In this document: one piece after another, positions 451 to 45,815 of the stretch
Numbering within the stretch: the stretch's first letter is position 1
How the letters are laid out: each line of letters starts with the position of its first letter
Source of the DNA: Mycolicibacterium sp. YH-1
GTDB lineage: Bacteria; Actinomycetota; Actinomycetes; Mycobacteriales; Mycobacteriaceae
Length of the DNA: 64,000 bases
Assembly (NCBI RefSeq): GCF_022557175.1
Contig: NZ_CP092915.1
Span: 3,162,001 to 3,226,000, forward strand
Reading direction: 5' to 3'
Notes under the pieces: generated by a model
Database searches by the model: none
The model's input: the letters and a program-made list of their open reading frames with translations, nothing else
What the model was told of the DNA's origin: nothing
Made by a program: the position numbers and the translations under genes

Positions 451-574
451 TAGGAGCCGATCATATGTGGCTCGGCACGCGCGGCCATCGGCGCGATCCC
501 CGCGGGCCAGAAGTTCGCTGTGCCATGATGACGTCGGCAAACTGCGGGTCGGGGAGCGCGAGAGGGGTGCACAG

Positions 575-3550
575 GTGGTCGACCTTTCGGCATTCACCAG
601 GCCGGTCGGGCGGTTGATGGCAACCGCGCAGAACGGGCTGGAGGTGCTCCGCTACGGCGGCCTGGAGACGGGCGCGGTCCCGTCGCCCTTCCAGATCATC
701 GAGAGCGTCCCCATGTACCGGCTTCGGCGGTACTTCCCGCCCGATTCCCGCCCGGGTGCCAAGCCGGCAGGCCCGCCGGTGCTCATGGTGCACCCGATGA
801 TGATGTCGGCCGACATGTGGGACGTGACGCGTGATGAGGGTGCCGTCGGCATCCTGCACGCCGCCGGCGTCGACCCGTGGGTCATCGACTTCGGCTCGCC
901 CGATCAGGTCGAGGGCGGCATGCAGCGCAACCTCGCCGACCACGTCGTCGCGCTGAGCGAGGCCATCGACACCGTCCGCACTGTCACCGACCGCGACGTC
1001 CACCTCGCCGGGTACTCGCAGGGCGGGATGTTCGCCTACCAGACGGCCGCGTATCGGCGGTCGAAGGACCTGGCCAGCATCGTCGCGTTCGGCTCGCCGG
1101 TCGACACCCTGGCGGCGTTGCCCCTCAACCTGCCCGCCAGCCTCGCCGCGGGCGCGGCGGACTTCATGGCCGACCACGTCTTCAGTCGCATCGACATCCC
1201 AGGCTGGCTGGCCCGCACGGGATTCCAGATGCTCGACCCGATCAAGACCGCGCAGGCGCGCATCGACTTCGTGCGCCAACTGCACGACCGCGAGGCGCTG
1301 CTCTCCCGTGAGCAACAGCGCCGGTTCCTGTCCAACGACGGCTGGATCGCCTGGTCCGGTCCCGCGATCGCGGAGCTGCTCAAGCAGTTCATCGCGCACA
1401 ACCGGATGATGAGCGGCGGCTTCTCGATCCGTGGTGATCTGGTCACGCTGTCCGACATCGACTGCCCGGTGCTCGCGGTGGTCGGTGAGGTCGATGACAT
1501 CGGTCAGCCGGCGTCGGTGCGCGGTATCAAGCGCGCCGCCCCGCAGGCCGACGTCTACGAATACCTGATCCGCGCAGGACATTTCGGTCTGGTGGTCGGC
1601 GGCAAGGCCGCCACCCAGACCTGGCCGACGGTGGCGTCCTGGGTGAAGTGGATATCGGGCGAGGGCGATATGCCCGATCAGGTCGTGCCGATGTCGCTGC
1701 AGCCGGCCGAGACAAACGAGAGTGGTGTGCAGCTGACGTCGCGCGTCGCGCACGTGGGTGCGGCCGCCACCGAGATGACGTTCAGTCTGGCCCGCACCGC
1801 GGCCGACGCATTTGTCGCGGCCAACAAGTCGGCACGCGCACTCGTCGTCGAGACGGCCAGGACGCTGCCGCGACTGGCCCGGCTCGGTCAGATCAACGAC
1901 CACACCCGGATCTCGCTCGGCCGCATCATGAACGAGCAGAGCAGCGCCACACCGAACGGTGAGTTCCTGCTGTTCGACGGCCGCGTGCACACCTACGAGG
2001 CCGTCGACCGTCGCATCAACAACGTCGTGCGCGGTCTCATCGACGTCGGTGTGCGCCAGGGGGCGCACGTCGGGGTCCTGATGGAGACCCGGCCCAGTGC
2101 GCTGGTCGCGATCGCCGCGCTGTCGCGGCTGGGTGCCGTGGCCGTGCTCATGCCGCCCGACGCCGACCTGGAGGAGGCGGCGCGTCTCGGCGGGATATCC
2201 GATGTGATCGCGGATCCGGGCAATCTGGACGCCGCGAGGAAGCTGCCGATCCGCGTGCTGGTCCTCGGCGGCGGTGAGAACCGCGATCTGGATCTGCCCG
2301 AGGACGCCGACGTCGTCGACATGGAGAAGATCGACCCCGACGTCGTCGAACTGCCGGGCTGGTACCGGCCCGACCCCGGTTACGCCAGGGACCTGGCCTA
2401 CGTCGCGTTCGCGCACGTTGGCGGCGAACTCGTGGCGCGTCAGATCACCAACTTCCGCTGGGCACTGTCGGCGATCGGCACCGCGTCCGCGGCCAACCTG
2501 GGCCGTAGCGACACGGTGTACTGCCTGACTCCGCTGCACCACCAATCGGGCCTGCTGGTCAGCCTGGGCGGCGCGGTGGTCGGCGGCACTCGCATCGCCC
2601 TGTCGCGCGGCCTGCGTCCGGACCGCTTCGTGCACGAACTGCGCCAGTACGGCGTCACCGTGGTGTCCTACACGTGGGCGATGCTGCGCGAGGTGGTGGA
2701 CGACCCGTCGTTCTCGGTCAACGGCACGCACCCGGTTCGCCTGTTCATCGGATCGGGCATGCCGACGGGGCTGTGGCGGCGCATCGAGCAGGAGTTCGAA
2801 CCCGCCCACGTCGTGGAGTTCTTCGCGACGACGGACGGTCAGGCCGTGCTGGCGAACGTGTCGGGCGCCAAGATCGGCAGCGAGGGCAGACCGCTGCCCG
2901 GTGCCGGGCGGGTGGAGCTCGCCGCCTACGACGTCGACGACGACCTCATCCTCGAGGACGAGCGCGGTTTCGTGCGGCTGGCGCAGCCCAATGAGGTGGG
3001 CGTGCTCCTCGCGCATCCTCGCGGGCCCGTCGACCCGACGGCCGCGATCAAGCGCGGGGTCTTCGCGCCCGCCGACACCTGGGTGTCCACCGAGTACCTG
3101 TTCCGCCGTGATGACGACGGCGACTTCTGGCTTGTCGACAACCGTGCCACCGTCATCCACACCGACCGGGGGCCGGTGTACAGCGCCACCGTGAACGACA
3201 CGGTGAGCAGGGTGGGCGCGGTCGATCTCTCGGTGACCTACAAGGTCACGGCCGGGGGACGGACGCTGGCCGTGACGGCGCTGACGCTGGCTCCGGGCGG
3301 CAGCGTTCCGAGCGCCGACCTGAACGAGGCGCTGGCCAGTCTTCCCGTCGGCGTGCACCCCGATCTGGTGCACGTTGTGCCCGATATGAAGCTCAGCGCC
3401 TCCTACCGGCCGCTGCTCGCGCCACTGCGGGCGATGGGTGTGCCGAAGCCCGCGCGTAACGCCTGGTACCTCGACTACGAAACAGGTGTGTACAAGCGGC
3501 TCACGACTGCCGTGCGTGCCGAACTGATGGGTGATGGCTCGGCCGACTGA
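575..3550 (+). CDS. Bifunctional alpha/beta-hydrolase (lipase/PHA-synthase-like) and acyl-CoA synthetase-like protein, Rv1683 type
   Basis: A 991-residue fusion. Residues about 1-400 form an alpha/beta hydrolase with nucleophile elbow GYSQGG (Ser148) and a late Asp and His (GEVDDIG, RAGHFG) completing a triad. Residues about 450-991 align with the AMP-binding acyl-CoA synthetase fold. The M. tuberculosis counterpart Rv1683 has been linked to triacylglycerol metabolism. The GTG at 575 is chosen because it follows a purine-rich site (gagagggg, 560-567) and gives the family length; the frame stays open further upstream only by overlapping the divergent ABC-F gene. The synthetase half is odd: the Ser/Thr/Gly-rich P-loop and the C-terminal catalytic Lys motif are not recognisable, so its adenylating activity is doubtful. 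Confidence 0.85.
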   Translation: MVDLSAFTRPVGRLMATAQNGLEVLRYGGLETGAVPSPFQIIESVPMYRLRRYFPPDSRPGAKPAGPPVLMVHPMMMSADMWDVTRDEGAVGILHAAGVDPWVIDFGSPDQVEGGMQRNLADHVVALSEAIDTVRTVTDRDVHLAGYSQGGMFAYQTAAYRRSKDLASIVAFGSPVDTLAALPLNLPASLAAGAADFMADHVFSRIDIPGWLARTGFQMLDPIKTAQARIDFVRQLHDREALLSREQQRRFLSNDGWIAWSGPAIAELLKQFIAHNRMMSGGFSIRGDLVTLSDIDCPVLAVVGEVDDIGQPASVRGIKRAAPQADVYEYLIRAGHFGLVVGGKAATQTWPTVASWVKWISGEGDMPDQVVPMSLQPAETNESGVQLTSRVAHVGAAATEMTFSLARTAADAFVAANKSARALVVETARTLPRLARLGQINDHTRISLGRIMNEQSSATPNGEFLLFDGRVHTYEAVDRRINNVVRGLIDVGVRQGAHVGVLMETRPSALVAIAALSRLGAVAVLMPPDADLEEAARLGGISDVIADPGNLDAARKLPIRVLVLGGGENRDLDLPEDADVVDMEKIDPDVVELPGWYRPDPGYARDLAYVAFAHVGGELVARQITNFRWALSAIGTASAANLGRSDTVYCLTPLHHQSGLLVSLGGAVVGGTRIALSRGLRPDRFVHELRQYGVTVVSYTWAMLREVVDDPSFSVNGTHPVRLFIGSGMPTGLWRRIEQEFEPAHVVEFFATTDGQAVLANVSGAKIGSEGRPLPGAGRVELAAYDVDDDLILEDERGFVRLAQPNEVGVLLAHPRGPVDPTAAIKRGVFAPADTWVSTEYLFRRDDDGDFWLVDNRATVIHTDRGPVYSATVNDTVSRVGAVDLSVTYKVTAGGRTLAVTALTLAPGGSVPSADLNEALASLPVGVHPDLVHVVPDMKLSASYRPLLAPLRAMGVPKPARNAWYLDYETGVYKRLTTAVRAELMGDGSAD

Positions 3551-6545: not shown

Positions 6546-7157
6546 GTGAGTTCAAATGCGCTGGTCACCGACCCGCTCACCGCCGCTCGGCGTCTACTCG
6601 GGGCACGATTGACTGGCCGTGGGGTGTCGGCGGTGATCCTCGAGGTCGAGGCCTATGGCGGACCCCCGGACGGCCCCTGGCCCGATTCCGCGGCGCACTC
6701 CTATCGAGGCTCCCGACCTCGGAGCGCGGTCATGTTCGGGCCCGCGGGCAGGCTCTACGCGTACCGCAGCCATGGAATCCACGTCTGTGCGAACGTGGTG
6801 TGCGGCGCCGACGGGGTGGCGGCCGCCGTGCTGCTGCGCGCCGCCGAGGTGGATGACGGTACGACCGTCGCCGCATCGCGTCGAGGTGCCTCCGTCGTGC
6901 CCGCGGGTCTCGCGCGAGGACCGGGAAATCTGTGCTCTGCGCTCGGAATCACCTTGGCCGACAACGGAATCGATCTCTTCGATGACGCCAGCCCGGTGCG
7001 CTTGACGCTCGGCGACCCGGTGGCGGGTATCGATGGCCCGCGTGTCGGGGTCAGTACGGCCGCCGACCGCCCGTGGCGCTTCTGGGTGAGCGGGCGCGCC
7101 GAGGTCTCCTCCTACCGGCGTAGTCCACGGGCCCCCGCACCGGGGGACAGCGACTGA
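6546..7157 (+). CDS. mpg: 3-methyladenine DNA glycosylase (AAG/Mpg family)
   Basis: 203 residues starting at GTG 6546. It matches the alkyladenine glycosylase family: [25 protein letters not shown] (containing the catalytic Glu), [27 protein letters not shown] and [15 protein letters not shown] (the GPG loop). The enzyme excises alkylated purines in base excision repair. It lies 29 bp upstream of tyrS, the same order as Rv1688-Rv1689, and diverges from the exporter operon. Length and motifs are complete; no clear ribosome-binding site precedes the GTG, so the first codon is the main uncertainty. Confidence 0.92.
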
Positions 7158-7186
7158 CGCCGCCCGGCATACGGGAAGATCGACCC

Positions 7187-8470
7187 ATGGGTAACGACAT
7201 CCTGGGCGAACTGGAATGGCGCGGTCTGATCGCGCAATCGACCGATCGGGATGCATTGGCGGCTGAGCTGGCCAAAGGGCCCCTGACGCTCTACTCGGGA
7301 TTCGACCCGACCGCGCCAAGCCTGCACGCCGGTCACCTGGTGCCACTGCTCACGTTGCGGCGGTTCCAGGCGGCCGGTCACCGGCCGATCGTGCTCGCCG
7401 GCGGCGCGACCGGCATGATCGGCGATCCTCGGGAGACCGGCGAACGGACGCTGAACACGGCGGACACAGTCGCCGACTGGGCCTCGCGCATCCGTGGCCA
7501 GCTGGAACGCTTCGTCGAGTTCGACGAGTCGCCGACCGGCGCGATCGTGGAGAACAACCTGTCCTGGACCGCGGAGCTCTCCGCGATCGAGTTCCTCCGC
7601 GACGTCGGCAAGTACTTCTCGGTCAACGTGATGCTGGATCGCGAGACTGTGCGCCGCCGTCTCGAGGGCGACGGCATGTCCTACACCGAGTTCAGCTACA
7701 TGCTCCTGCAGTCCAACGACTACGTGGAGCTGCACCAGCGCCACGGCTGCGCGTTGCAGATCGGTGGCTCCGACCAGTGGGGGAACATCGTCGCCGGCGC
7801 TCGACTGGTCCGCCAGAAACACGGCGCAACGGTGCACGCGATGACGACGCCGCTGGTCACGGACTCGGAGGGCAAGAAGTTCGGTAAGTCCACCGGTGGC
7901 GGAAACCTGTGGCTGGACCCCGAGATGACCAGCCCTTATGCCTGGTACCAGTACTTCGTCAACACCGCCGACGCCGACGTGGTGCCGTACCTGCGGTGGT
8001 TCACCTTCCTCACGGCCGAGCAGATCGAGGAGCTCGAACGGGCGACCGCCGAGCGCCCGCATGAACGGGCCGCACAACGGCGCCTCGCCCAGGAACTCAC
8101 GACGTTGGTGCACGGGCAGGCGGCCACCGATGCCGTCGAGCACGCCAGCCAGGCGTTATTTGGCCGCGGTGAACTGGGGGAGTTGGACGAGTCGACCCTT
8201 GCGGCCGCCCTGCGGGAGGCCGGCAACGACCAGGTGGCCGAGCTGAAGCCGGGCGGACCCGATGCGATCACCGATCTTCTGGTGGCCACGGGACTGTCGG
8301 CGAGCAAGGGAGCTGCGCGTCGCACGGTCGCCGAGGGCGGTGTCTCGGTCAACAACGTGCGGATCGAAAGCGATGACTGGGTACCGCAGGCATCGGACTT
8401 CCTGCATGGGCGATGGCTCGTGGTCCGCAGGGGCAAGCGGAATATCGCGGGGGTCCAGAGGGTTACATGA
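7187..8470 (+). CDS. tyrS: Tyrosyl-tRNA synthetase
   Basis: 427 residues, class I synthetase. The HIGH-type motif appears as [10 protein letters not shown], the tyrosine pocket as [13 protein letters not shown] and GGSDQWGNI, and the KMSKS loop as [10 protein letters not shown]-terminal S4-like RNA-binding domain ([17 protein letters not shown]) completes the usual bacterial TyrRS. The ATG at 7187 is preceded by gggaag at 7170-7175. The rRNA operon promoter begins 36 bp after the stop codon, the arrangement known for the tyrS-linked rrn operon of rapidly growing mycobacteria. Confidence 0.97.
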
Positions 8471-8506
8471 GTGAAGTTCGGATGAATATCGCCTCTACCA
8501 GGCGAT

Positions 8507-8535
8507 TTGACTCCCAGTTTCCCCTCGCGTAACTT
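8507..8535 (+). promoter_or_regulatory. rrn operon promoter (sigma-A type)
   Basis: TTGACT at 8507-8512, a 17-bp spacer and TAACTT at 8530-8535 form a near-consensus mycobacterial SigA promoter just behind tyrS, about 290 bp before the 16S gene. Transcription would start near 8541-8543. No second promoter of similar quality is seen in the leader. Confidence 0.75.
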
Positions 8536-8633
8536 ATTGCAAGTCAGAGCGACGCGGTGAAAGCCGCAGAGCGCGAGACATTCAAGAGGAAAGCCACTTA
8601 GGTGGGACTACTTCTACGCCCGCACTACAGTAT

Positions 8634-8701
8634 CGCGGCTTTTAGCCGCGGGATTGTTGCGCGGTCAGTGCAGGTCTGTTGTTTGAGAACTCAATAGTGT
8701 G
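8634..8701 (+). promoter_or_regulatory. rRNA leader: boxB-like hairpin, boxA-like element and 16S processing arm
   Basis: A perfect 7-bp hairpin (CGCGGCT, loop TTT, AGCCGCG; 8634-8650) is followed by GTTGTTTGAGAAC (8678-8690), similar to the conserved actinobacterial boxA antitermination element. The next segment CAATAGTGTG (8692-8701) is exactly complementary to CACACTATTG at 10543-10552 behind the 16S gene, so the two can form the RNase III stem that frees pre-16S RNA. The remaining leader to 8832 is T-rich and holds no gene. Confidence 0.6.
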
Positions 8702-8832
8702 TTTGATGGTTTTTGTTTGTTGTTGTTGCACTCTTTTTTCTCGTTTAGGGGTGTGACATTGTTTTTTGCCAGTTTTTACTGGTGTTAGGTCGGACTTGTT
8801 CTGATTGAATTCACCTGTCTTTGGATGGGTTG

Positions 8833-13892
<5,060 letters not shown>

Positions 13893-34019: not shown

Positions 34020-34094
<75 letters not shown>

Positions 34095-34139: not shown

Positions 34140-34205
34140 GCTGCGGCGGGCGGCAAGGATGCCGGGAGCCGCAGCGTCCGGCGCGTCAGCGGCGGTCGCG
34201 CCGGC

Positions 34206-34270
34206 GGTTCCTGTCAGCCCGACAGAGAGTTAGCAGTTCAACGGCGGTTTCGGAGAAATCCGGGGCCGCC
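34206..34270 (+). repeat. Left copy of a degenerate 65-bp block found at both island ends
   Basis: Begins GGTTCCTGTCAGCCCGAC, of which the last 14 bases equal the tRNA-Pro 3' end, and continues with AGAG..AGCAGT..GGCGGTTTCGGAGA. A similar block with scattered differences lies at 41891-41957. It is a second, older pair of tRNA-tail scars outside the perfect repeats' immediate context. Confidence 0.6.
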
Positions 34271-34588: not shown

Positions 34589-35320
34589 CTACAACCCGAG
34601 GCGACCCGCCAGGCCGTCAACTGCGGCCCTGGCGGTGTCGTCGCTCGTGTGCCCGTACACGTCGCCGGTGATCGCGATCGACGAGTGCCCGAGCAGATCG
34701 GCGACGGCCTTGATGTGCACGCCTGCCTCAAGCCAGTCCACCGCCGCAGAGTGACGCAGCGTGTGCACGCCGACACCCGCAACGCCCGCCACCTTCGCAG
34801 CAACCTCAATCACGCGGAGCAGATTGCGAGGGTCAACGGGACCGCCGAACTCGGTGGTGAACACCAGACCCCGAGTCGGTCCATTGATTCCCGGCGCGCA
34901 GCCGCTCGGCCTTCTGCTCGGTCCGGTGCTTGCGCAACATCGCCACGACGGCAGGCGGTATCGGCACCGCGCGCCGAGAGCGCGCCGTCTTCGGCTCTGT
35001 GATCGTCAGCGCATGGTTCACCCGAGCGATCGTCGCCGCGACCTTCAACGTCTTGGCGTCGAGGTCAACTCGATCCCATCGCAGCGCCAACGCTTCGCCC
35101 TTACGCAGCCCGCTCGACGCAATCAACACCAGGGCCGGGTGATAACGGGACGCCTGCGCGGCGGTGAGGACCGCAGCGACAGCGTCAGCGTCCAGGTGCC
35201 TGGCCTCGGTGCGTTCGACCCCTGGACGCTTTCACCAGCGCGGCGGGATTGCGTGCCAGCAGCCCGTCACGCACCGCGCCGTCGAGCCCGGCGCGCAACT
35301 GCCACACCGGGTTTGGGGGT
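34589..35320 (-). pseudogene. Tyrosine integrase remnant, frameshifted and N-terminally truncated
   Basis: Three consecutive segments in different frames read as one phage integrase: LRAGLDGAVRDGLLARNPAA (35.3-35.22 kb); GLRKGEALALRWDRVDLD with the catalytic Arg (35.2-34.88 kb); and TEFGGPVDPRNLLRV...HTLRHSAAVDWLEAG, LLGHSSIAITGDVYGHT with the R-H-Y residues (34.86-34.59 kb). The breaks are explained by one extra A in a GAAAG run near 35230 and one extra G in a GGGG run near 34872. The N-terminal arm-binding domain is missing upstream of about 35320. Both shifts lie in homopolymers, so a sequencing error must be excluded, but the missing N-terminus argues for true decay. Confidence 0.8.
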
Positions 35321-36040: not shown

Positions 36041-37180
36041 TCAGCTGCCACTGTTGGCGGCTAGCCAAGCGGATAGAACGGCCTGGGCGAGTTCGTCGTC
36101 AGTGAGTTGCAATTCGCGGCCGCGCTGTTGGACGTCCTCTAACAGTTGGGGATCGACCTTGCCGGGGATCTTGGTCGGGGGGCCGGAGGGCTGTCGTGTA
36201 GACGGTGGGACTATTAGTTCGTCGCGGGGGAATAGGTCAATCAGGGACATCATTTGCTCGGCGGTGATGTGCATGGGTTTTCCGCGCTCAACCCACTTCA
36301 AGATCTTCACGGCTGCCGATTCTTTGCACACACCCTTGTTGTGGACGAAATCATTTCTGATGAGACGGATGTCGCCGAAGAAATCGTTCAGCACGTCGTT
36401 GCTGCGGACTTTCGTTTCCGCTTGTCGGTCAAAGCATTTGGCGATGCGGCCTCGGAATTGTTCCTCCCACAACGAGTATGCGTAGCTGAACCACTGTGCG
36501 TAGGAGACGGCCTGCACTTCGGGGTAACTCTCGACGGTTTTCGGTCTGGCCGCTGCCACCATAATCACAGCGCCGCCGTTTATCGCGGACACAAGATCCT
36601 GCATGTGTACGCGGCCGGGGCCGCCCGTCTCTGCGTAGTCGAGTGTCTTCACGTCGAAGTAATGACCCACGTCGGTCGGCAAATACCCTTGCAGAAACCG
36701 CTGGTGTGGTCCTTCCCACCCGGCGACCTTTTGGATCAGGACGTTGTGTGAGGTCAGTGTGACGACGAGAGAGATGAGGAACGCTCGCTCCAACTCGCCG
36801 ATGATCTCGTCGATCGAATCGTCTGCTGCCATCTGAACTTCCAGTAGGGGTAAGGCATTTTCGATGGAATTGATGAGGGTTCGTAGGGTTTCGTCGAACC
36901 CGTCCCCGAACGAGAGATCGCGCACGGCCTGCGCTACGGGGTCGAGGGTCTTCGCCAAGTGGGTTTCGCCGCCGAGGTTTTGGCTCTGGAGAGTGAGTTT
37001 GATTTGGTCGCGTGCCGTACTCGTCATGACTTCTCTGTCGCGTTCGCCGATGACTCGTACGCCCTGCTGATGTTTCGCGGCTTCCGCGAATGCGGCAAAA
37101 GATTCTTCGGCCGACTGGAGTATCGCCAACTGCTCGCGAAGGACTCCGAGCCAACGCTTGCTGCGACTCTGTTTGTACAT
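36041..37180 (-). CDS. Large island protein with HEPN-type R-x4-H motif, candidate ribonuclease
   Basis: 379 residues. ATG 37180 is preceded by gagggg at 8 bases. The protein is helical and soluble. Near residues 240-300 a segment reads YAQWFSYAYSLWEEQFRGR then FFGDIRLIRNDFVHNKG; R275-N-D-F-V-H280 matches the R-x4-6-H catalytic signature of HEPN ribonucleases, preceded by the expected helix. The C-terminus ends in a charged helix (LTDDELAQAVLSAWLAA). HEPN proteins are common in anti-phage and toxin systems. Base composition is visibly lower in G+C than the flanking chromosome, pointing to transfer. The rest of the protein (residues 1-230) is not recognised. Confidence 0.7.
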   Translation of the reverse strand: MYKQSRSKRWLGVLREQLAILQSAEESFAAFAEAAKHQQGVRVIGERDREVMTSTARDQIKLTLQSQNLGGETHLAKTLDPVAQAVRDLSFGDGFDETLRTLINSIENALPLLEVQMAADDSIDEIIGELERAFLISLVVTLTSHNVLIQKVAGWEGPHQRFLQGYLPTDVGHYFDVKTLDYAETGGPGRVHMQDLVSAINGGAVIMVAAARPKTVESYPEVQAVSYAQWFSYAYSLWEEQFRGRIAKCFDRQAETKVRSNDVLNDFFGDIRLIRNDFVHNKGVCKESAAVKILKWVERGKPMHITAEQMMSLIDLFPRDELIVPPSTRQPSGPPTKIPGKVDPQLLEDVQQRGRELQLTDDELAQAVLSAWLAANSGS

Positions 37181-37226: not shown

Positions 37227-37853
37227 CTACTCCTCTGCCCGTATCCCAGGTGGCAGCGGCGATCCCGATGGCCGCTCGCTAGGGGCCAGCGTCCAGTCAC
37301 CGTGCACAACCGATACGCCGTGTCGTTTAGGGCCGAATGTCCTTTTGCGGTCGATGAATCGGACGATGGGTCGTGCGCGCGTTGATTTGCCGAGGTGCCC
37401 CTCAAGGCCCAGCGGCCCGACCCGATACACGAATTGCTTGCTGTGGTTCCGGCCAAGTACCACCGGCTGGAATTCGTCACCATCGTCTGGCCCGATGATC
37501 TTTTTCTGGACGCCGGGAGAAATGTCGGTGACCGTCACGGTGAGCGTCGGGTCTACAGCGTTGCCCGCGACGAAAATGCTGTCGCCGCGCTCGGGGGCAC
37601 GGTCGAATTCCCATTCAAGCGAAACCAGCGTCGTCTCGACGTCGCCGGTATTGGAGATGGTCACTTGCGCCTCCCAGCCAAGGAACGTACGGCCGGACCC
37701 GTCGTGATGCCACCTCGAGGCCCCGGCGACCCGGTCGTCTTCGAACACGACGTTCGGGCGATTCCACCAGTTGGCTTTGATCTGCCAGCCGAGAGCCCAT
37801 CCACCCATCACGGCGGCGATGGTGGAGACAACGTTGGCGTAGACATCGCTCAT
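37227..37853 (-). CDS. Membrane-anchored island protein of unknown function
   Basis: 208 residues from ATG 37853. One N-terminal membrane helix (VVSTIAAVMGGWALGWQI) is followed by a beta-rich domain with segments FLGWEAQVTISNTGDVETTL and VDPTLTVTVTDISPGVQKK. It lies 46 bp upstream of the HEPN-candidate gene on the same strand and may be co-transcribed. A membrane partner beside a HEPN protein would fit a sensor/effector arrangement, but this is inference. No named domain can be assigned. Confidence 0.65.
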   Translation of the reverse strand: MSDVYANVVSTIAAVMGGWALGWQIKANWWNRPNVVFEDDRVAGASRWHHDGSGRTFLGWEAQVTISNTGDVETTLVSLEWEFDRAPERGDSIFVAGNAVDPTLTVTVTDISPGVQKKIIGPDDGDEFQPVVLGRNHSKQFVYRVGPLGLEGHLGKSTRARPIVRFIDRKRTFGPKRHGVSVVHGDWTLAPSERPSGSPLPPGIRAEE

Positions 37854-37925
37854 AGCTGAGAAACAATAGCGACGGCACGCCCTGAATGGACCGGGGTGCA
37901 CAGCAATTCTTGCCCGAACTGACCT

Positions 37926-38132: not shown

Positions 38133-38204
38133 CAGCGCACTTTAGACGCAGGCACCGACTCACCGACAACACGAAATCAGCAGCTTGACGTCGGCCGCCA
38201 CCCC

Positions 38205-38210
38205 TAATCT
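38205..38210 (+). promoter_or_regulatory. -10 box for a leaderless nuclease-helicase mRNA
   Basis: TAATCT lies 7 bases before GTG 38218, the spacing at which a mycobacterial transcript starts on the first base of the start codon. No ribosome-binding site is present before the GTG, as expected for a leaderless gene. A TTGACG at 38185-38190 is too close (14-bp spacer) to be a good -35 box. Confidence 0.55.
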
Positions 38211-38217
38211 GATTTCT

Positions 38218-41200
38218 GTGACACAGCTTGGCGATCTATTGGCTCGGTTGGATGCCGACCCATATCGGCGAGGCAAGCAGTTCGAACACATTTGTAAGTG
38301 GTTTCTGACCCACGATCCCGTCTACGCGCATGAGCTTCGCCAGGTATGGCTGTGGGATGAGTGGCCTGCTAGGTGGGGCATAGACGCAGGAATTGACCTT
38401 GTAGCCGAGGACCGCAACGGACACCTGTGGGCGATCCAGGCCAAGGCGTACGACCCTGCCTGCAGGATCACCAAGCGGGATGTGAACAAGTTCCTCGCCG
38501 AGTCTGGCCGAGCACTTTTCACGTACCGCATGTTGATCGCCACGACCAACCTCATCGACCGCATCGGCGAGCGCACGATCCAGGATCAAGAGAAGCGGGT
38601 CACCTTCTTCCGGCTCAACGACCTCCAGGCCGCTGACGTGGACTGGCCTGCATCACCGATGGCACTGCGTACCGCGCGACCGCGCAAACCCGCCCGCCCA
38701 CACGACTACCAGCGCGAGGCGATCAAGAAGGTGGTCAAGCGCTTCGAGTCGGCGGATCGCGGACAACTCATCATGGCGTGCGGGACGGGCAAGACCCTGA
38801 CGGCGCAGTTCATCCGCGAGAAGCTGGCCGCCGATCGGACCCTTGTCTTGGTCCCGTCCCTGTCGCTGTTGAAGCAGACGCTGAACGTGTGGCGGGCTAA
38901 TAGTGCTACCGAGTTCGCCTCCCTGCCAGTCTGTTCCGACGATACGGTCGCGCGGGACGACGATGATGTCGCGGTGTCGCACACTAGCGACCTCGGTGTG
39001 CCTGTGACCACCGACCCCGTCGAGATAGCGGCGTTCCTGCGGCAACGGTCAGGACCACGGGTGGTGTTCGCCACCTATCAGTCCTCACCGCAGATCGCCG
39101 AGGCGTTCCTGCTGAGTCGGGTGCCCGCCTTCGACCTGGTCATCGCCGATGAGGCGCATCGCTGCGCCGGTCCTGTCTCCTCGGACTTCGCCACCATTCT
39201 CGACCCCCAGGTGATCAAGGCGCGCCGCCGATTGTTCATGACCGCCACTCCGCGCTACTTCACCGGCCGGGTCGTGCGGGAAGCTGAAGAGGCCGAGTTT
39301 GAGGTCGCCTCGATGGACAACGAGGCGGCGTTCGGTCCGGTGTTCCACCGGCTCGGGTTCGCCGAGGCGATCGAGCTTAAGCGGCTCACCGACTACCAGG
39401 TAGCCGTGGTGGGCGTCGACGATGCCACCTATCGCGACTGGGCGGAGCGGGGCCGGTTCGTGACCATGGATGGCACCGAGGTGACCGATGCCCGCACGCT
39501 TGCCGGACAGATCGGGCTGGCAAAAGCCATGCGTAAGTACGATCTTCGTCGCACTATCTCGTTCCATTCGCGGGTCAAGCGGGCGCGGGAGTTTGCCGTA
39601 TCCATTCCTGAGGTGATTGCGTGGATGCCTGCCCGTCAACGCCCTAAGGGGGCGCTGTGGGCTACACACGCATCGGGTGAAATGCCCGCCGGTGATCGAT
39701 ATGTACTGCTCCAACATCTTGCCCGCCTTGACGAGAGCGAGCGCGGCCTGCTGACCAATGCGCGCTGCCTGGCCGAGGGGGTCGACGTTCCCACCCTCGA
39801 CGGCGTGGCCTTCATCGACCCGCGCCGCTCTGAGGTCGACATTGTGCAGGCCGTCGGGCGCGCCATCCGGCTCGCACCCGACAAGACCGTCGGCACCATC
39901 GTCATCCCAGTGTTCATCGACACCAACGAAGACCCCGAGACCGCCCTCGACGGCTCGGCGTTCAAGCCGGTGTGGGACGTCATCAAGGCGCTGCGCTCAC
40001 ACGACGATGAGCTTGGTAAGCAACTCGACGAACTCAGACGGCAGGTGGGCCGGCTGGGCCAACGCGGACGGCCACGAATTCCCCCCAAGATTCACTTCGA
40101 TCTCCCCGCGAGGGTGGGAGCCGACTTCGCCCGCGCCTTCGACGCGCGACTCGTGGAGCAGACCACCGCGTCGTGGGAGTTCTGGTACGGGCTGCTGGAG
40201 CGGTACGTAGGAGAGAACGGGACCGCGTGGGTGCGTGGCACGGAGATGTACGAGGGTTACCGGCTCGGGCAATGGGTGCTCGTCCAGCGGACCAAGTGGA
40301 AAACACTCCCCGAGGACCGGAAGGTCCGTCTCCTGGCCATTCCGGGCTGGATAACTGATGTCCGTGAATTCCAATGGGAAGAAGGCTTTTCGCATCTTGT
40401 GCAATACGTCGCACAGGAAGGCGATGCCCATGTCCACGACGAATGGGTAGCCGAGGATGGGTACCGCCTGGGTAAGTGGGTGGGGAAGCAGCGGAGCAAA
40501 TGGGACAAGCTCACCGACGGGCAGCGAAAGCGTCTGTCGGAGCTCCCCGGTTGGACGCAGGATGCGATAACCGCCCGCTGGGAGACCGGCTACCGATTGC
40601 TTCAGCAGTACGCAGCCGAGACAGGCGACGCGAACCCTCCACAGGATTACGTGGTGGAGGGGTTCAATCTCGGCATCTGGGTCCGCACTCAGCGGGCGCG
40701 GTGGGAGTTCTTGTCCGAGGAAAGGCAGGAGCTGCTTCGTCAGATTGACGGCTGGATGGTGGACCTGCTGGGTGAGAAGTGGGACCGGACATGCCGCATG
40801 TTGGAAAAGTACGCGGACGAGAACGGTACTTCGGCGGCGAAGCAGACGCTGCTGATCGACGGTGTTCCCGTGGGTCGGTGGGTCAGTAAACAGCGCGACC
40901 GTTGGGACTTGCTGACAGATGAACAGCGCGCCCGGCTCAAGAAACTCCCGGGATGGACTCTCGACGCTCGAGGGGTTTGGTGGGAGGAGGCGTACCAGAG
41001 GCTCCATGAGTACGTCGGTCAACACGGAAGCGTCCCGCGGGGGAAGCTTGTCTACAAAGGGTTCCGTCTTGGAGCATGGATCATTAATCAGAAGAGCCGT
41101 TGGGACACGCTCACACCCGAACGCCAACAGCGTCTTTCAATGCTTGCGGGCTGGACTCTCGAAGCCCATCAAGACCGATGGGAGGACGGCATCCAGCGCC

Positions 41201-41583
41201 TTGAGGACTACGCAAAAGCCAACGGAACTGCGCGGCTTCCGAATAGGAAATACATCCACAACGGGTTCAAACTCGGCGGCTGGGCGGACAGGCAAAGGGA
41301 CAATTGGGAGAACCTCAGCGAAGACCGCAGATCACGCTTAGACGCTCTGCCGGGCTGGGTCCCGAACGTCAAGCAGGCGCAGTGGGACGAGGGGTACGAG
41401 TACCTACTGAAGTACATCGAGCAGAACGGCGACGCGGCAGTCCCGACAGGAACTGTGTTCGACGGTTACAAGCTGGGTCAGTGGGTCACGGTTCAGCGAA
41501 CCATGTTTCGACGGGGAGCTATTAAGCCGGAGCGCCGCGCGACGCTCGGGAGGCTGCCCGGTTGGGTATGGAAGGCGAGGTAG
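38218..41583 (+). CDS. Mrr-like nuclease / DEAH helicase fusion with seven helicase-associated (HA) repeats
   Basis: 1121 residues. (1) Residues about 1-150: restriction-endonuclease-like fold with GIDLVAED...WAIQAKAY, i.e. Asp followed by the Q-x-K of Mrr-type PD-(D/E)xK nucleases. (2) Residues about 165-600: superfamily-2 helicase with Walker A MACGTGKT (Lys192), DEAH at 311-314 (VIADEAHRC), TATP (FMTATPRYF) and motif VI QAVGRAIRLAP. (3) Residues 653-1121: seven repeats of about 67 residues, each with a leading W(E/D), a central LG.W...QR..W and a closing LPGW-like end, matching the helicase-associated domain. GTG 38218 is chosen because of the leaderless promoter spacing. It probably unwinds and cuts foreign DNA; this is inference from the domains and island setting. 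Confidence 0.88.
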   Translation: MTQLGDLLARLDADPYRRGKQFEHICKWFLTHDPVYAHELRQVWLWDEWPARWGIDAGIDLVAEDRNGHLWAIQAKAYDPACRITKRDVNKFLAESGRALFTYRMLIATTNLIDRIGERTIQDQEKRVTFFRLNDLQAADVDWPASPMALRTARPRKPARPHDYQREAIKKVVKRFESADRGQLIMACGTGKTLTAQFIREKLAADRTLVLVPSLSLLKQTLNVWRANSATEFASLPVCSDDTVARDDDDVAVSHTSDLGVPVTTDPVEIAAFLRQRSGPRVVFATYQSSPQIAEAFLLSRVPAFDLVIADEAHRCAGPVSSDFATILDPQVIKARRRLFMTATPRYFTGRVVREAEEAEFEVASMDNEAAFGPVFHRLGFAEAIELKRLTDYQVAVVGVDDATYRDWAERGRFVTMDGTEVTDARTLAGQIGLAKAMRKYDLRRTISFHSRVKRAREFAVSIPEVIAWMPARQRPKGALWATHASGEMPAGDRYVLLQHLARLDESERGLLTNARCLAEGVDVPTLDGVAFIDPRRSEVDIVQAVGRAIRLAPDKTVGTIVIPVFIDTNEDPETALDGSAFKPVWDVIKALRSHDDELGKQLDELRRQVGRLGQRGRPRIPPKIHFDLPARVGADFARAFDARLVEQTTASWEFWYGLLERYVGENGTAWVRGTEMYEGYRLGQWVLVQRTKWKTLPEDRKVRLLAIPGWITDVREFQWEEGFSHLVQYVAQEGDAHVHDEWVAEDGYRLGKWVGKQRSKWDKLTDGQRKRLSELPGWTQDAITARWETGYRLLQQYAAETGDANPPQDYVVEGFNLGIWVRTQRARWEFLSEERQELLRQIDGWMVDLLGEKWDRTCRMLEKYADENGTSAAKQTLLIDGVPVGRWVSKQRDRWDLLTDEQRARLKKLPGWTLDARGVWWEEAYQRLHEYVGQHGSVPRGKLVYKGFRLGAWIINQKSRWDTLTPERQQRLSMLAGWTLEAHQDRWEDGIQRLEDYAKANGTARLPNRKYIHNGFKLGGWADRQRDNWENLSEDRRSRLDALPGWVPNVKQAQWDEGYEYLLKYIEQNGDAAVPTGTVFDGYKLGQWVTVQRTMFRRGAIKPERRATLGRLPGWVWKAR

Positions 41584-41787: not shown

Positions 41788-41830
41788 CTGGGGGTCAAGT
41801 GGTCGCAGGTTCAAATCCTGTCAGCCCGAC
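41788..41830 (+). repeat. attR: 43-bp direct repeat of the tRNA-Pro 3' part
   Basis: Identical to 34052-34094. The bases before it (CGCATAT) differ from the tRNA, so this is only the 3' part, not a second tRNA gene. Confidence 0.92.
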
Positions 41831-41870: not shown

Positions 41871-41890
41871 ATGTCCGGGGACACGATGCC

Positions 41891-41957
41891 GGTTCCTGTC
41901 AGCCGGACCAGAGTTTCAGCAGTGCACAGGCGGTTTCGGAGAGATTTCGGAGCTGCC
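41891..41957 (+). repeat. Right copy of the degenerate 65-bp end block
   Basis: GGTTCCTGTCAGCCGGAC, then AGAG..AGCAGT..GGCGGTTTCGGAGA, resembles 34206-34270. It lies outside attR, so the duplication predates or accompanies the present island. The stretch 41958-42015 shows nothing else recognisable. Confidence 0.55.
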
Positions 41958-42015: not shown

Positions 42016-42245
42016 TCAGTCAACGGCGACGCTCTCGACTGAGTCCAGGTTGACAGCAGACCGGCGCGGGATCGGATCGCCACCGGGTTCGAGCAGGACC
42101 TCGCTGGCGAGGCTGCGGATTGTCGTCGTGCACGGCGCAACTATCGCGCGATCGCCGCGTCGCGCGAGAGAAACACGACTGGGCGTCGACCGATCTCGAC
42201 CAATTCGCACCACCACACCTCCCCGCGGACCGGAAGTGGGCTCAC
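42016..42245 (-). pseudogene. MazF-type toxin remnant
   Basis: Starts at GTG 42245, overlapping the antitoxin stop (GTGA). The first frame reads RGEVWWCELVEIGRRPVVFL and on to SRDAAIAR, a normal MazF N-terminus, then meets TAG. The continuation, RAIVAPCTTTIRSLASEVLL and PRRSAVNLDSVESV, is in another frame and ends early at 42016, before the last helix of MazF. Both an internal small deletion and loss of the C-terminus are needed to explain it, so no active RNase is made. Confidence 0.82.
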
Positions 42246-42478
42246 GAAGCGGCCGCTGCCTGTCGAAACGACGCGAGGTCGCCCCATTCGTCTGGCTCAT
42301 CGAGCGGGTGCTTGTCGTACGCGGCGTAGCTCGCGTCCACCTCGGCGGAGCGGTGACGAGCAAGCAACGCTTCGAGGGCCTCGTCGATGAGGGCGGCGTC
42401 GGTGGCTCCCGAGCGCACTTTCCGGGCACCCGCAAGCAGCTCGGCGTCTACGGTCGTGCTCAGCCGTGCTCTACTCAT
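42242..42478 (-). CDS. MazE-type antitoxin, partner toxin broken
   Basis: 78 residues. The N-terminus [19 protein letters not shown] is ribbon-helix-helix-like and the C-terminus is acidic ([20 protein letters not shown]), where MazE wraps the toxin. The gene looks intact although the following mazF is a pseudogene, so it is an orphan antitoxin. It starts at ATG 42478. It could still repress its own promoter or neutralise a related toxin elsewhere; neither can be judged from the window. Confidence 0.82.
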
Positions 42479-42551: not shown

Positions 42552-42917
42552 TCAGGCGATGAGCAACACCCACACCGCAGCTGCGGATACCACGACCGCC
42601 GTTCCGTAGCTGCACACCGCGATCACCCGGTCGAACCGGCCAAGTTGCAGCCCGTGCTCGATCGTGAACCGGATGCGGTGTGCGAAGTGGAACAGGGCGA
42701 GCACACACACGCCGAACAGCACCAGTTTGGTGAACGGATTCCGGACGACCGCCAATAGATGGGCATGGTCCGGAGCGCCGAGCCACCCGAGTGGAAACGC
42801 CACCCCGAACAGGAACAGTAGGACGGGCAGGACGAGTGCGGCCACCATGCCGCCGCCGCTGAACAGCAGCCACAGGAACGGCTCGGCCGACCGTTGATGC
42901 CGTGCGGATGTGCTCAT
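42552..42917 (-). CDS. frdD: Fumarate reductase membrane anchor subunit D
   Basis: 121 residues with three membrane segments (FLWLLFSGGGMVAALVLPVL, FTKLVLFGVCVLALFHFAHR, VIAVCSYGTAVVVSAAAVWV). The His in LFHFAHRIRFTIEHG fits quinone/anchor sites of FrdD. It overlaps frdC by ATGA. Its sequence corresponds closely to M. tuberculosis Rv1555. Together with FrdC it binds the catalytic dimer to the membrane and passes electrons from menaquinol. Confidence 0.9.
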   Translation of the reverse strand: MSTSARHQRSAEPFLWLLFSGGGMVAALVLPVLLFLFGVAFPLGWLGAPDHAHLLAVVRNPFTKLVLFGVCVLALFHFAHRIRFTIEHGLQLGRFDRVIAVCSYGTAVVVSAAAVWVLLIA

Positions 42918-43306
42918 GACAGGACCACCCAGGCCAGCACCGCCGAGACGACCACCCATGCCGCGTAGTGCGCCGCAAGGATCGCGCGAGCGGGTACACG
43001 GCGTCCCCGAATGTGGGGCACGATCGCACGCGGCGCCGAACCGAACCAGGTAACCGCGTGCAGCAGAAGGAAAATCAGTGCGATGACGTTGAGCGAGACC
43101 ACAAGCGGATTGGCACTCCAGTCCAGGAACCGAAGGTAGGAATCCCGTCCGGCGCCAACCGCATGCACCAGCAGCAACAGATACACAACAGACCAGGCCA
43201 CGAAGACACAACTGATCTCGCGAAGCATGAACAGCAGGTACGACCGCCGCTTCGCCCACCAGAACCTGGCGATCGGCTGACGATACGCGCGCGCCGGCGT
43301 GGTCAT
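42914..43306 (-). CDS. frdC: Fumarate reductase membrane anchor subunit C
   Basis: 130 residues, three membrane helices, with the FrdC sequence [38 protein letters not shown] and [15 protein letters not shown], close to M. tuberculosis Rv1554. ATG 43306 overlaps the frdB stop (ATGA) and the end overlaps frdD, giving tight coupling of the anchor subunits. Confidence 0.93.
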
Positions 43307-44046
43307 CGCGCGCTCCTCGGGAACAGCAACTCCTTCACCGATTGTGTTGCCGCGGTGAGCTTGTAGCGCTGTATGGCGCCGGCCGGATCGACTCCCTTTG
43401 GGCAGGCCGTCGAGCATTCGCCCACCAGGGTGCACGCCCAGGCGCCGTGGTCCGCCGCGAGCACGTCCCGCCGGTCCGCCGCGCCCTCATCGCGCGAGTC
43501 CAGGTTGTAACGCTGGCCCAGCGCGATCGCCGCCGGACCGAGGAAGTCGGGGTCAAGGGCGTACACCGGGCATGCCGAGTAGCACAGCATGCAGTTGATG
43601 CACATGCTGAACTTCTTGTACTCATCGAGTTCGGCTGGGGTCTGGAGGTATTCGCCGTCCTCGACGGACAGCTCGTCCTCGCGGATGATCCACGGCTTGA
43701 CGGTCGGCAGCTTGGCGATGAAGTCGCTGATGTCGACGACGAGATCGCGGATCACCGGGAAGTTTCGCATCGGCTCGACTCGCACGGGTCCGGGTAGGTA
43801 ATCCACGAGGAAGGTCGCGCACGCCAACTTCGGGTCGCCGTTGATCGTCATGCCACAGCTGCCGCAGATGCCCATCCGGCACGACCACCGGAAGGTCAGC
43901 GTCCCGTCGAGCTGATCCTTGATGTAGTTCAGGCCGTCCAGGATCGCCCACTCGCGGGTGACGGGCACGTCGTAGGCCTGCACGACCGGCTCGGACTCGA
44001 TCTCCGGCCGATACCTGGAGACCTCCATGACGATTCGCTGCGCCAT
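43303..44046 (-). CDS. frdB: Fumarate reductase iron-sulfur subunit
   Basis: 247 residues. The [2Fe-2S] site is [20 protein letters not shown] followed by Cys; the [4Fe-4S] site is [12 protein letters not shown]; the [3Fe-4S] site is [14 protein letters not shown]. All three clusters needed for the electron path are intact. ATG 44046 is taken, 8 bases from GGAGG; the adjoining GTG 44049 would add one residue. It lies 29 bp behind frdA. Confidence 0.95.
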
Positions 44047-44075
44047 CACTCCACCTCCCGTCGCCTCGCTCGCCC

Positions 44076-45815
44076 CTACCTCCCGTAGACACGCTCGCCC
44101 GGAGGCCAGCGCGTGATCGTCACCGGAAGGTAGTCGACGCGCGCGGCTCCGTCGGACTCTCGATGAATCAACGTGTGTGCCAAGAAGCGCTCGTCGTTGC
44201 GCTTGGGGAAGTCTGTGCGTTGGTGCGCACCGCGCGATTCTTCTCGGCGCAAGGCGGATTCGACGATGGTCTGCGCGATGTCGAGCATCCCCGACAACTC
44301 GAGCAGCCCCGTCAGCTCCGTGTTGAACGTGTGGCTGTGATCCTCGATCCCGACTCTCGCGAAGCGCTCCTGCAGCACCCGGATCTGCTCGACCGCCTTT
44401 GTCAATGTGGGTCCATCACGGTAGATCCCGGCGGCCGTCTCCAACGTGGCCTGCATGTCCGCCCGGATGTCGGCGATTCGGTCGTCCCCATCGACATGGC
44501 GGCTGAGCTGACGTTCCAGTCGCCGCGTCTCGGTGCGTGCCTGCGCCTGAACTGAAGGTGAGGTGCCGCGGGCGGTCGTCGCGTACTCCGCGGCGGCGCG
44601 GCCGGCTCGGGCACCGAACACCAGCAGCTCCGGCAGCGAGTTCGAGCCCAACCGGTTGGCGCCGTTGATGCTGACGCATGCCGTCTCGCCTGCGGCGTAG
44701 AGCCCGGGAAACGTTGTGGCGCCGTCGATATCGGTGTGAACGCCACCCATCATGTAGTGCACCACGGGTCGCACGGGGACCAGCTCGGTCACCGGGTCGA
44801 TGTGCTGGTAGTCGCGGCACAGCTCACGCACGAACGGCAGTCGTGTGTTGATCAGGTCGGCGCCCAGGTGCCGTAGGTCGAGGTAGACGACGGGTCCGTA
44901 CGGCGTCTCGACCGTCCTTCCCTTCTCCTGCTCGTGCACGAACGCCTGGGACAGCCGGTCCCGGGGTCCCAGCTCCATACTGCGCAGCTTCGGCTCGGGA
45001 GTGGGCTCGCCGAGGTCGTAGTCCTGCAGGTAGCGGTAGCCGTCCTTGTTCAGCAGCCAGCCACCCTCCGCGCGCGTCGCCTCGGTGATCAGGATTCCGG
45101 TGAACGGCAGCCCGGTGGGGTGGTACTGGACGAACTCCATGTCCTTCAGCGGTGCGCCCGCCCGGAACGCCAGGGCCATTCCGTCGCCGGTCTTGATGCT
45201 GGCGTTGGTGGTGAACGGAAACACGCGCCCACATCCGCCGGTGCACACGATCACGGCGTCGGCGAGGATCGTCTCGATGCGCCCGGTCGCCAGCTCGATG
45301 GCGACAACACCGCATACCCTGCCGTCGTCGACGAGCAAGGTCGTCGCGAACCACTCGTCGTAACGGACGATGTCCGGGTAGGCGAGAACGCGCTGAAACA
45401 GCGTGTGCAGCAGGTGAAATCCGGTCTTGTCGGCGGCGAACCACGTGCGCAGCTTCTTCATGCCGCCGAACGCGCGAACGGCAATGCGGCCGTCCGGCTT
45501 ACGGCTCCACGGACAGCCCCAATGCTCCAGCTGCAACAACTCCCGAGGCGCCTCGGCCACGAAGGCCTCGACCGCGTCTTGGTCGCACAGCCAGTCACCC
45601 CCGGACACGGTGTCGTAGGCGTGCTCGTCGAGGCTGTCGTCCTCGCCCGCCACGCCGGCGGCGCCGCCCTCGGCCGACACGGTGTGGCTGCGCATCGGGT
45701 ACACCTTGGAGACGATCGCCACGCTCAGGAGCGGGTTCGTCTCGGCGATCGCGATCGCCGCGCGCAGCCCCGCACCGCCCCCGCCGATCACCACTATGTT
45801 GTGTGACGCCGTCAT
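44076..45815 (-). CDS. frdA: Fumarate reductase flavoprotein subunit
   Basis: 579 residues. Dinucleotide motif [18 protein letters not shown], covalent-FAD site [11 protein letters not shown] (His44), substrate-site residues in [11 protein letters not shown] and the active-site Arg/His region [13 protein letters not shown], then ANRLGSNSL. Length and order (A-B-C-D) match M. tuberculosis Rv1552-Rv1555. FrdABCD reduces fumarate with menaquinol, or runs as a succinate dehydrogenase, under low oxygen. A small Cys/His protein gene lies 9 bp upstream. Confidence 0.95.

Follow-up and report, generated by a model that had tools for sequence, protein, structure and literature searches.

The gene at 38218..41583 (forward strand) of the window, the 64,000-nucleotide stretch of Mycolicibacterium sp. 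YH-1 DNA that was analysed, encodes a nuclease, an SF2 translocase and a tandem array of helicase-associated (HA) repeats in one chain, raising the question of what the array does for the engine, that is, the nuclease and motor to which it is attached. The gene was delineated from the ORF list, Pfam and an alignment of relatives. The ORF list gives 38185-41583, which encodes 1132 residues from a TTG codon; the GTG at 38218, the start used in the original prediction, is residue 12 of that form and yields 1121 residues, and it fits better as the start, being where a consensus of 48 relatives sets in. Residue numbers follow the 1132-residue form, in which the originally named Lys192 is K203.

Pfam matches and invariant motif residues support the predicted union of an Mrr-type nuclease, an SF2 helicase and HA repeats in a single protein. 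An Mrr_cat_2 nuclease domain (residues 43–155, 38311..38649, E 8.8e-33) with the residues D71...Q85-x-K87 is followed by the two halves of an SF2 motor, each delimited by Pfam, the LlaBIII match and the alignment: a ResIII/DEAD half (residues 172–357, 38698..39255, E 2.3e-21), which includes K203 and the DEAH residues 322–325, and a Helicase_C half (residues 491–563, 39655..39873, E 1.4e-6), all on the forward strand. In a 48-sequence alignment (A1), the nuclease residues D71, Q85 and K87 and the motor residues G202 K203 T204, D322 E323 A324 H325, T353 A354 T355 P356, Q555 and R559 are invariant; G202 K203 T204 is the Walker A motif.

The engine is homologous to that of the Type ISP restriction enzymes. 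By phmmer, residues 28–618 match LlaBIII (4xqk, E 1.2e-96) and residues 167–618 match LlaGI (5ffj, E 2.4e-72), and LlaBIII was also the top Foldseek match of the full predicted model (E 1.7e-28), although the two superpose loosely (query-based TM 0.42; rmsd 26 across 1009 columns). In the AF2 model, residues 11–160 have pLDDT values of 74–89 per ten-residue block, and the motor part is poor (41–67 per block, residues 321 to 660). The N-terminus aligns with LlaBIII by sequence and lies within this top structural match, so its assignment as a nuclease stands. As in LlaBIII and LlaGI, an Mrr nuclease precedes an SF2 helicase-like ATPase, the translocase, in a single chain. The Type ISP architecture further includes a methyltransferase (MTase) and a target-recognition domain in the same chain, as described in the available text of PMC4666363. 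By contrast, no MTase family matches the window protein in Pfam at E ≤ 1; its LlaBIII match stops at residue 618, and seven HA repeats, from residue 664, occupy the place where the MTase and target-recognition domain would sit.

The HA profile (PF03457) matched the protein at 6.3e-88 in seven stretches above the Pfam cut-off, and the seven matches over the cut-off in the whole genome all lie inside this ORF. The repeats start at residues 664, 731, 799, 866, 933, 999 and 1067 (spacings 67, 68, 67, 67, 66 and 68). They are 66–68 residues each, in keeping with the tandem repeats of about 67 residues first predicted, and 33–44% identical pairwise; when the protein was shuffled 1000 times, no shuffled version reached E ≤ 10 against a profile built from the seven repeats. 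With the residues at repeat column 22 and, after the point, columns 33, 36, 37 and 40 given in brackets, repeats 1 to 7 occupy 40174..40374 (G.QLVT), 40375..40578 (D.KGKS), 40579..40779 (Q.IRTA), 40780..40980 (Q.RSKD), 40981..41178 (G.AINS), 41179..41382 (N.GDRD) and 41383..41580 (T.QTVT), all on the forward strand. The suggestion that seven copies are unusual did not hold. Seven is ordinary, even low: among the 120 closest proteins listed (query included), all of which carry HA repeats, 102 have more than seven, the counts ranging from 4 to 15 (4 repeats in 1 protein, 6 in 3, 7 in 14, 8 in 33, 9 in 25, 10 in 22, 11 in 1, 12 in 6, 13 in 2, 14 in 10 and 15 in 3), and copy number was dropped as a point of interest. 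The nuclease domain, too, was recovered in all 120 with a profile. Relatives are very common: one search, with just 7991 candidates scored, returned at least 4845 related proteins at E ≤ 1e-5; annotation names of relatives include “DEAD/DEAH box helicase” and “Helicase associated domain protein”.

Five repeat columns, 22, 33, 36, 37 and 40, stand out: look-alike repeats within an array differ most at these positions, yet orthologous arrays preserve them. In a first set, 30 proteins supplied 120 within-array pairs (repeats 70–93% identical), which were compared with 2348 orthologous pairs. Columns 37, 36, 22, 40 and 33 had an excess mismatch of 0.54, 0.53, 0.52, 0.52 and 0.40, the top of 62 columns. 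For each of the five the bootstrap 95% interval lay above 0.28, and the mean of ten control columns of our own choosing was −0.05. When one sister pair was taken per protein (30 pairs), columns 37, 36, 33 and 40 stayed highest and column 22 merely equalled control column 10. Columns 33, 36, 37 and 40 had been picked from the first set, and column 22 emerged in the later sister-repeat comparison; because the columns were chosen on the first set, a second set is their sole test. This set, 119 proteins found with a distant relative, a Pseudomonas plasmid protein, consists of relatives rather than unrelated data. The same five columns were the top five mismatched in its 414 within-array pairs, column 40 (0.58) being barely ahead of column 23 (0.56). 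Columns 41 and 42 also showed an excess in the first set, but the second gave a small one for 41 and none for 42, and neither column belongs to the candidate code. Among near-identical repeats, conservation of the code columns only moderately exceeds that of other variable columns; the contrast becomes clear when sister repeats are treated apart from orthologous arrays. The repeats thus have what marks a modular array, few positions that are diversified in sister repeats and kept in orthologous arrays.

Columns 33, 36, 37 and 40 fall on one predicted helix (helix 2) and their i, i+3, i+4, i+7 spacing would place all four on one exposed face. Acidic residues account for 2–5% at these columns versus 38–44% at helix-1 columns 10, 13 and 14, and low acidity is also found elsewhere, at columns 25 and 41 (7% and 2%). 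The variable positions are nearly acid-free and mostly polar or small, and Q38-R39 between them is near-invariant. Helix 2 has what we take to be a homeodomain-like look, to which Foldseek gave no support. The array model returned no Foldseek match at E ≤ 0.001, so base reading draws no support from a known DNA-binding fold. The HA-like structure 2kta is uninformative on DNA for these repeats.

When an array family was defined by two adjacent repeats at ≥70%, 145 proteins gave 44 families, 29 of them single. Among pairs with engine identities of ≥85%, which share proteins and are non-independent, 109 of 248 belong to different array families. Such exchange is rarer in the closest engines: different families were found in 4 of 37 pairs at ≥90% and, in a separate sharing count in which a repeat was called shared at ≥60% identity, 0 of 16 pairs with engines at ≥95% shared 15% or less of their repeats. 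The window protein (P0001) and P0066 are 90–100% identical in all seven 50-residue blocks of the first 350 residues, with most array blocks just 32–46% identical; P0001 and P0006 have an array in common, with only 52–76% identity over the first 350 residues. Likewise, the engine blocks of P0061 and P0110 are 88–100% identical over 600 residues with no ordered shared repeat at ≥60%, and P0031 and P0046 have engine blocks of 44–70%, save one of 82%, and array blocks of 69–92% from residue 850. The five-repeat L090 array seems to share repeats with many proteins in the ≥60% count, probably because its repeats lie near the consensus. These comparisons suggest that arrays and engines have been exchanged between proteins, which, with the five-column pattern, points to modular DNA reading.

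The window protein is reasonably likely to be a single-chain restriction-like enzyme, in which a Type ISP-kind Mrr nuclease and SF2 translocase are steered by the HA array. The array would direct the engine in place of an MTase and target-recognition domain. Each repeat would offer helix 2 (LG-x33-W-V-x36-x37-Q-R-x40) to DNA, residues 33, 36, 37 and 40 and the loop residue 22 would make the choice of bases, and the order of the repeats would spell a composite target. Binding to the target may then load the motor, whose translocation would lead the nuclease to cut mobile DNA as it enters, and specificity could shift as arrays are swapped or recombined between engines. We tentatively put forward a wider reading, quite possible though somewhat short of probable: HA repeats may constitute a natural modular code, about one repeat per short base-pair stretch, read mainly through residues 22, 33, 36, 37 and 40, and swappable arrays of 4–15 repeats on Type ISP-like nuclease-translocases may give bacteria a protein-encoded immunity to defined mobile DNA, the targets being too long to need self-methylation. 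The extended DNA- or RNA-binding arm of the original prediction thus gains indirect support, from the column signature and the acidity, as a modular and exchangeable reader; RNA binding is the part left unsupported. A Type ISP enzyme cleaves after translocating and colliding from head-to-head sites that are unmodified. The available text of PMC4666363 states that a Type ISP double-strand break requires two head-to-head sites. A long unique target would rarely be present twice, implying either another mode of cleavage or sites that are short or loose.

A composite target long enough to be absent from the host would explain why no cognate MTase was found. The adenine-MTase families PF02384, PF01555 and PF07669 have no match in the host genome. 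Three m5C methyltransferase genes lie ≥2.4 Mb from the gene, and these distant genes might still provide methyl-based self-marking. Around the relatives, 22 related loci contributed 148 flanking genes, and no MTase family in Pfam matched two or more of these, among the best 25 of 112 families, listed down to single matches, so that a once-only MTase could be hidden. The 148 were drawn from 163 genes (52564 residues); the other 15 belong to L010 (all five of its genes), L071, L073 and L079 (one each), L080 (two), L089 (three) and L090 (two). An HA-only ORF, L079:8124-8999, is among these 15. A motif script found no MTase-like motif pair in 442 simple-rule ORFs from 28 loci (three of which duplicate others), a null that weighs little because the script had no positive control. 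Modification-dependent enzymes occur among Mrr-type nucleases, and this, together with a protein that has no MTase domain and relatives that have no recurrent MTase beside them, would suit a Type IV-like modification- or structure-dependent nuclease, which would recognise foreign DNA from modified bases, DNA ends or replication structures and for which the array would give affinity with little sequence choice. We regard such an enzyme as unlikely, however, since a non-specific binder offers no reason for orthologs to keep the very residues that sister repeats change, nor for the exchange of whole arrays on similar engines.

The setting of the gene bears on another alternative. The gene lies within a 7.7-kb chromosomal island at about 3.2 Mb of a 7267399-base (7.27-Mb) contig, of which the window covers 3162001-3226000, far from the ends. 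The presumed target of the island is a tRNA-Pro(GGG) gene (34020..34094, forward strand, ARAGORN). A repeat search found a 43-nt direct repeat, with its left copy, the presumed attachment site, in the 3′ part of the tRNA (34052..34094) and its right copy about 200 bases past the stop of the gene (41788..41830), both on the forward strand. On the reverse strand, a broken tyrosine integrase (34589..35129) consists of two ORF pieces (34589-34864 and 34833-35129) that, in a search of integrase PHROGs, match phrog_1 with E values of 9.3e-18 and 7e-17. Matches at E ≤ 1e-150 occur in 34 of 396 same-genus genomes, the window’s own included, and several matches in related genomes carry a stop; G009 and G056 each have one such match that ranks with the strongest. 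Plasmid records with relatives number 778, of which 391 are from Streptomyces, and most genes flanking relatives belong to mobile elements, with defence-like matches scattered among them. The plasmid records and the integrated island would fit a housekeeping helicase of the TtrA kind that helps its own element to transfer or replicate, with the array reading the element’s own sites. The available text of PMC8743542 describes TtrA, found on the linear replicons of actinobacteria, as a putative DEAD-box helicase, and that of PMC3424136 names ttrA merely a putative helicase gene. TtrA of Streptomyces linear replicons is telomere-proximal, near a linear-replicon end and transcribed inwards, whereas the window gene sits in a tRNA-Pro island with a broken integrase, distant from either contig end, and the nuclease-domain match in every one of the 120 closest proteins listed also argues against this role, which we consider distinctly unlikely.

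It is improbable that the ligand of the variable HA face is RNA or a protein, such as phage proteins that vary, with attack on DNA following the sensing: diversifying surfaces arise in protein recognition too and the array matched no DNA-binding fold, but variable positions with almost no acidic residues, mostly polar or small, around an all but constant Q38-R39 speak against it, as does an array that sits where Type ISP enzymes have their DNA-recognition part.

Should the five columns prove to be a recognition code, natural DNA-reading arrays in this family would probably number in the thousands, already joined to a motor and in many cases to a nuclease as well. They would form another class of modular DNA-reading repeat to set next to zinc fingers and TALE-like repeats, and would reveal a restriction strategy in which target length, instead of methylation, prevents self-damage. 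The array pattern thus hints that nature has a little-known toolkit for recognising DNA programmably. A literature search of partial coverage (HA repeats or domains, PF03457) found no paper on HA-array function, and the term “HA repeat” is absent from the available main text of PMC11417379, which screens DNA-binding repeat proteins. Like the window protein, the HA helicases in Pfam (among them Pseudomonas and Streptomyces plasmid proteins) combine a helicase with tandem HA repeats, and those of the second set have the same five variable columns; unlike the window protein, most of the latter have no recognisable Mrr domain (present in 36 of 119 by a purpose-made profile and in about 44 of 119 by a hand count of Pfam matches). 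Zinc-finger and TALE-type arrays are modular DNA-binding arrays. HA repeats differ from them in having about 67 residues and a sequence of their own, and no DNA complex or code was found for them; they share with both a conserved repeat frame, few diversifying positions, varying array length and the exchange of modules.

The open reading frame that had been predicted to start at 38218 is real and encodes 1132 amino acids when read from TTG 38185 to the stop codon at 41581-41583; GTG 38218 is the likelier start, because the consensus of 48 relatives begins there. The predicted Mrr-type nuclease, DEAH helicase and seven HA repeats were borne out by Pfam, which places (numbering of the 1132-residue form) Mrr_cat_2 at residues 43-155, ResIII/DEAD at 172-357, Helicase_C at 491-563 and HA in seven stretches. 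Residues that are invariant across a 48-sequence alignment comprise D71...Q85-x-K87 of the nuclease, those of the Walker A, DEAH and TATP motifs, and Q555/R559. Spacing between the seven repeats is 66-68 residues, and they share 33-44% identity. Their profile gave no match at E ≤ 10 to any of 1000 shuffles of the protein, and a search of the whole 7.27-Mb assembly returned seven HA matches, all in this gene, with none in 14 control genomes.

The original prediction also held that seven HA copies are unusual, a view that the relatives contradict. In a large protein set, 4845 of the 7991 candidates scored reached E ≤ 1e-5. The nuclease-domain profile matches all 120 listed relatives (query included), which carry 4-15 HA repeats: fewer than seven in 4, seven in 14 and more in 102. 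The 119 proteins of a second set, gathered by searching with a Pseudomonas plasmid protein that shares 32% identity with the window protein, carry 5-13 each. Seven copies are thus ordinary and the wrong reason for interest; the notable part is the evolution of the array. By a profile made here, 83 of the 119 second-set proteins (P0121-P0239) are HA helicases without the nuclease; at least 60 residues precede Walker A in 65 of these and fewer in 18. In such proteins the same motor and array may carry different effector domains.

The nuclease-motor part, or engine, is Type ISP-like as judged from alignment and a predicted fold. Residues 28-618 match the Type ISP restriction enzyme LlaBIII (E 1.2e-96) and residues 167-618 match LlaGI (E 2.4e-72), both ranking above the three other solved sequences matched. 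Foldseek with an AF2 model, in which the motor part is of low confidence, also placed LlaBIII top (E 1.7e-28); the two superpose only loosely (query TM 0.42; rmsd 26 over 1009 columns). In PADLOC the protein scores best against a Type IIG restriction enzyme-methyltransferase model, the alignment spanning just positions 21-645 of its 1646. Published Type ISP enzymes have a motor followed by coupler, methyltransferase and recognition domain (PMC4666363); in the window protein, by contrast, the HA array takes that place, and Pfam finds no methyltransferase family in it at E ≤ 1.

Nor is a partner methylase visible elsewhere. The families N6_Mtase, N6_N4_Mtase and Eco57I, which are present in 13, 11 and 11 of 14 control genomes, respectively, match nothing in the host genome. 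The m5C methyltransferase genes of the host number three, from four matches of which two share a frame, and lie at least 2.4 Mb from the window protein gene. Of the 163 listed genes that flank relatives at 22 loci, 148 were scanned; no methyltransferase family hit more than one of them, in contrast to resolvases (6), integrases (5) and genes of the IS21 type (3). PADLOC matches there were scattered (best 25 of 88 families): mad1 four times, DrmD three times, and DRT reverse transcriptases, SduA and candidate systems singly. A rival reading is that the protein senses base modification or structure.

A 43-nt direct repeat around the stretch that holds the gene, one copy of it within tRNA-Pro, together with a broken integrase and lower G + C, makes it likely that the gene was carried in as cargo by an element that integrated and has since decayed. 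The left repeat (34052-34094) is the 3' part of the tRNA gene and the right one (41788-41830) follows at a spacing of 7736 bases, the window protein gene being the last sizeable gene between them. The tyrosine integrase lies in pieces just within the left end, and G + C is 58-66% in 1-kb windows from about 35.5 to 42 kb vs 64-71% outside. Imperfect direct repeats, D1 and D3 (34194-34259 and 41879-41945), beside both ends may have been left by an earlier or a second insertion. Two adjoining island proteins, of 379 residues (36041-37180, minus strand) and 224 residues (37227-37901, minus), have no match in Pfam, PADLOC, NCBIfam or PHROG, and blastp at E ≤ 1e-3 linked neither to any of the 442 genes called near relatives. 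The former contains RNDFVH, in agreement with R-x4-H, a motif of HEPN RNases; the latter has, by eye, an apparent N-terminal membrane helix. A VapB-like antitoxin frame lies at 42242-42478 (minus; PF09957, E 1.1e-4, just below the cut-off). Adjoining the island are genes for fumarate reductase/succinate dehydrogenase D, C, Fe-S subunit and flavoprotein (42552-45815, minus). At 434-3550 (plus) lies a 1038-residue protein with an acyl-CoA synthetase match (NF005898, 1831.8 bits) and a class III PHA-synthase-like N-terminal part.

Matches at E ≤ 1e-150 occur in 34 of 396 genomes of the genus (the window's own listed among them); an order-wide sample yields 7 of 397, all in one genus of 85. Relatives lie on 778 plasmid records, and a transfer role like that of TtrA, a putative helicase of Streptomyces linear replicons, is another rival reading. 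In a phage collection only two records match, in the engine part: OR848216.1 and OR846882.1, short and labelled Listeria phages, encode a nuclease-motor relative 34.5% identical over residues 29-616.

Across 1332 repeats of 145 proteins, entropy is highest at columns 33, 40, 37, 22 and 36 of the aligned repeat. Drift was separated from diversification by comparing sister repeats within one array (120 pairs, 30 proteins) with orthologous repeats (2348 pairs, neighbouring repeats matching too), both at 70-93% identity. The outcome is code-like: sister pairs differ 72-82% of the time at columns 37, 36, 22, 40 and 33, vs 21-33% for orthologous pairs, an excess of 0.40-0.54 that tops all 62 columns (bootstrap intervals above 0.28), while ten hand-chosen control columns average -0.05. 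When each protein contributes a single sister pair (30 in all), columns 37, 36, 33 and 40 stay top (0.67-0.80) and column 22 equals control column 10 (both 0.63). In the second set the same five are most mismatched among 414 sister pairs from 48 proteins (0.58-0.72; column 23 next at 0.56, controls 0.16-0.36); among 185 orthologous pairs they mismatch at 0.22-0.33 vs 0.30-0.46 for controls. In an AF2 array model (mean pLDDT 87), columns 33, 36, 37 and 40 fall on the second helix of every repeat, with 22 before it; being spaced i, i+3, i+4, i+7, they are therefore predicted to share one helix face. Acidic residues make up 2-5% at these four columns vs 38-44% at helix-1 columns 10, 13 and 14, and are also scarce at columns 25 (7%) and 41 (2%). 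The only solved HA-like domain found was PDB 2kta; a further rival reading is that the variable face binds protein or RNA.

Sequence comparisons indicate that arrays and engines are exchanged between relatives. The relative P0066 has an engine 87% identical to that of the window protein and four unrelated repeats; the array of the window protein is instead shared with P0006, whose first 350 residues are only 52-76% identical to it per 50-residue block. The engines of P0061 and P0110 are 88-100% identical per block over the first 600 residues and their arrays have no ordered shared repeat at ≥60% identity; P0031 and P0046 have engine blocks at 44-70% (one at 82) and array blocks at 69-92% from residue 850 on. 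When an array family is taken to need a run of two neighbouring repeats in common at ≥70%, the 145 proteins form 44 families, 29 of them single. Protein pairs fall in different families in 455 of 721 cases at engine identity ≥80%, 109 of 248 at ≥85%, 22 of 84 at ≥88% and 4 of 37 at ≥90%, counts in which pairs have proteins in common and so are not independent events; by a looser shared-repeat count, the array is lost in none of 16 pairs at ≥95%. At locus L079 (G031), an HA-only frame (8124-8999, minus; 291 residues, four HA), possibly a detached array piece, lies directly behind a 10-HA gene. Locus L088 (G697) has adjacent same-strand nuclease-helicase-HA genes (6669-9887 and 9811-13740; 6 and 9 HA), with engines 68-100% identical per 50-residue block over the first 600 residues, arrays 34-54% identical per block and different codes.

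Beyond homology and this evolutionary signature, the mechanism is inferred. Most likely, the array would dock on a composite sequence, after which the motor would translocate and the nuclease cut, in the manner of Type ISP enzymes. A target read by several modules may be missing from the host, and no methylase would be needed. Type ISP cleavage happens where two head-to-head enzymes meet (PMC4666363). A long unique site would offer no second enzyme, which is the main difficulty; cleavage may need a roadblock, shorter sites instead, or a protein pair; two adjacent genes with different arrays occur at L088, one of 20 stretches retrieved. The window protein joins a restriction-like engine to a swappable, code-like reader, an arrangement of which we found no printed description in a literature of which coverage was partial. 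The exchange of arrays and engines resembles the swapping of target-recognition domains in restriction systems.
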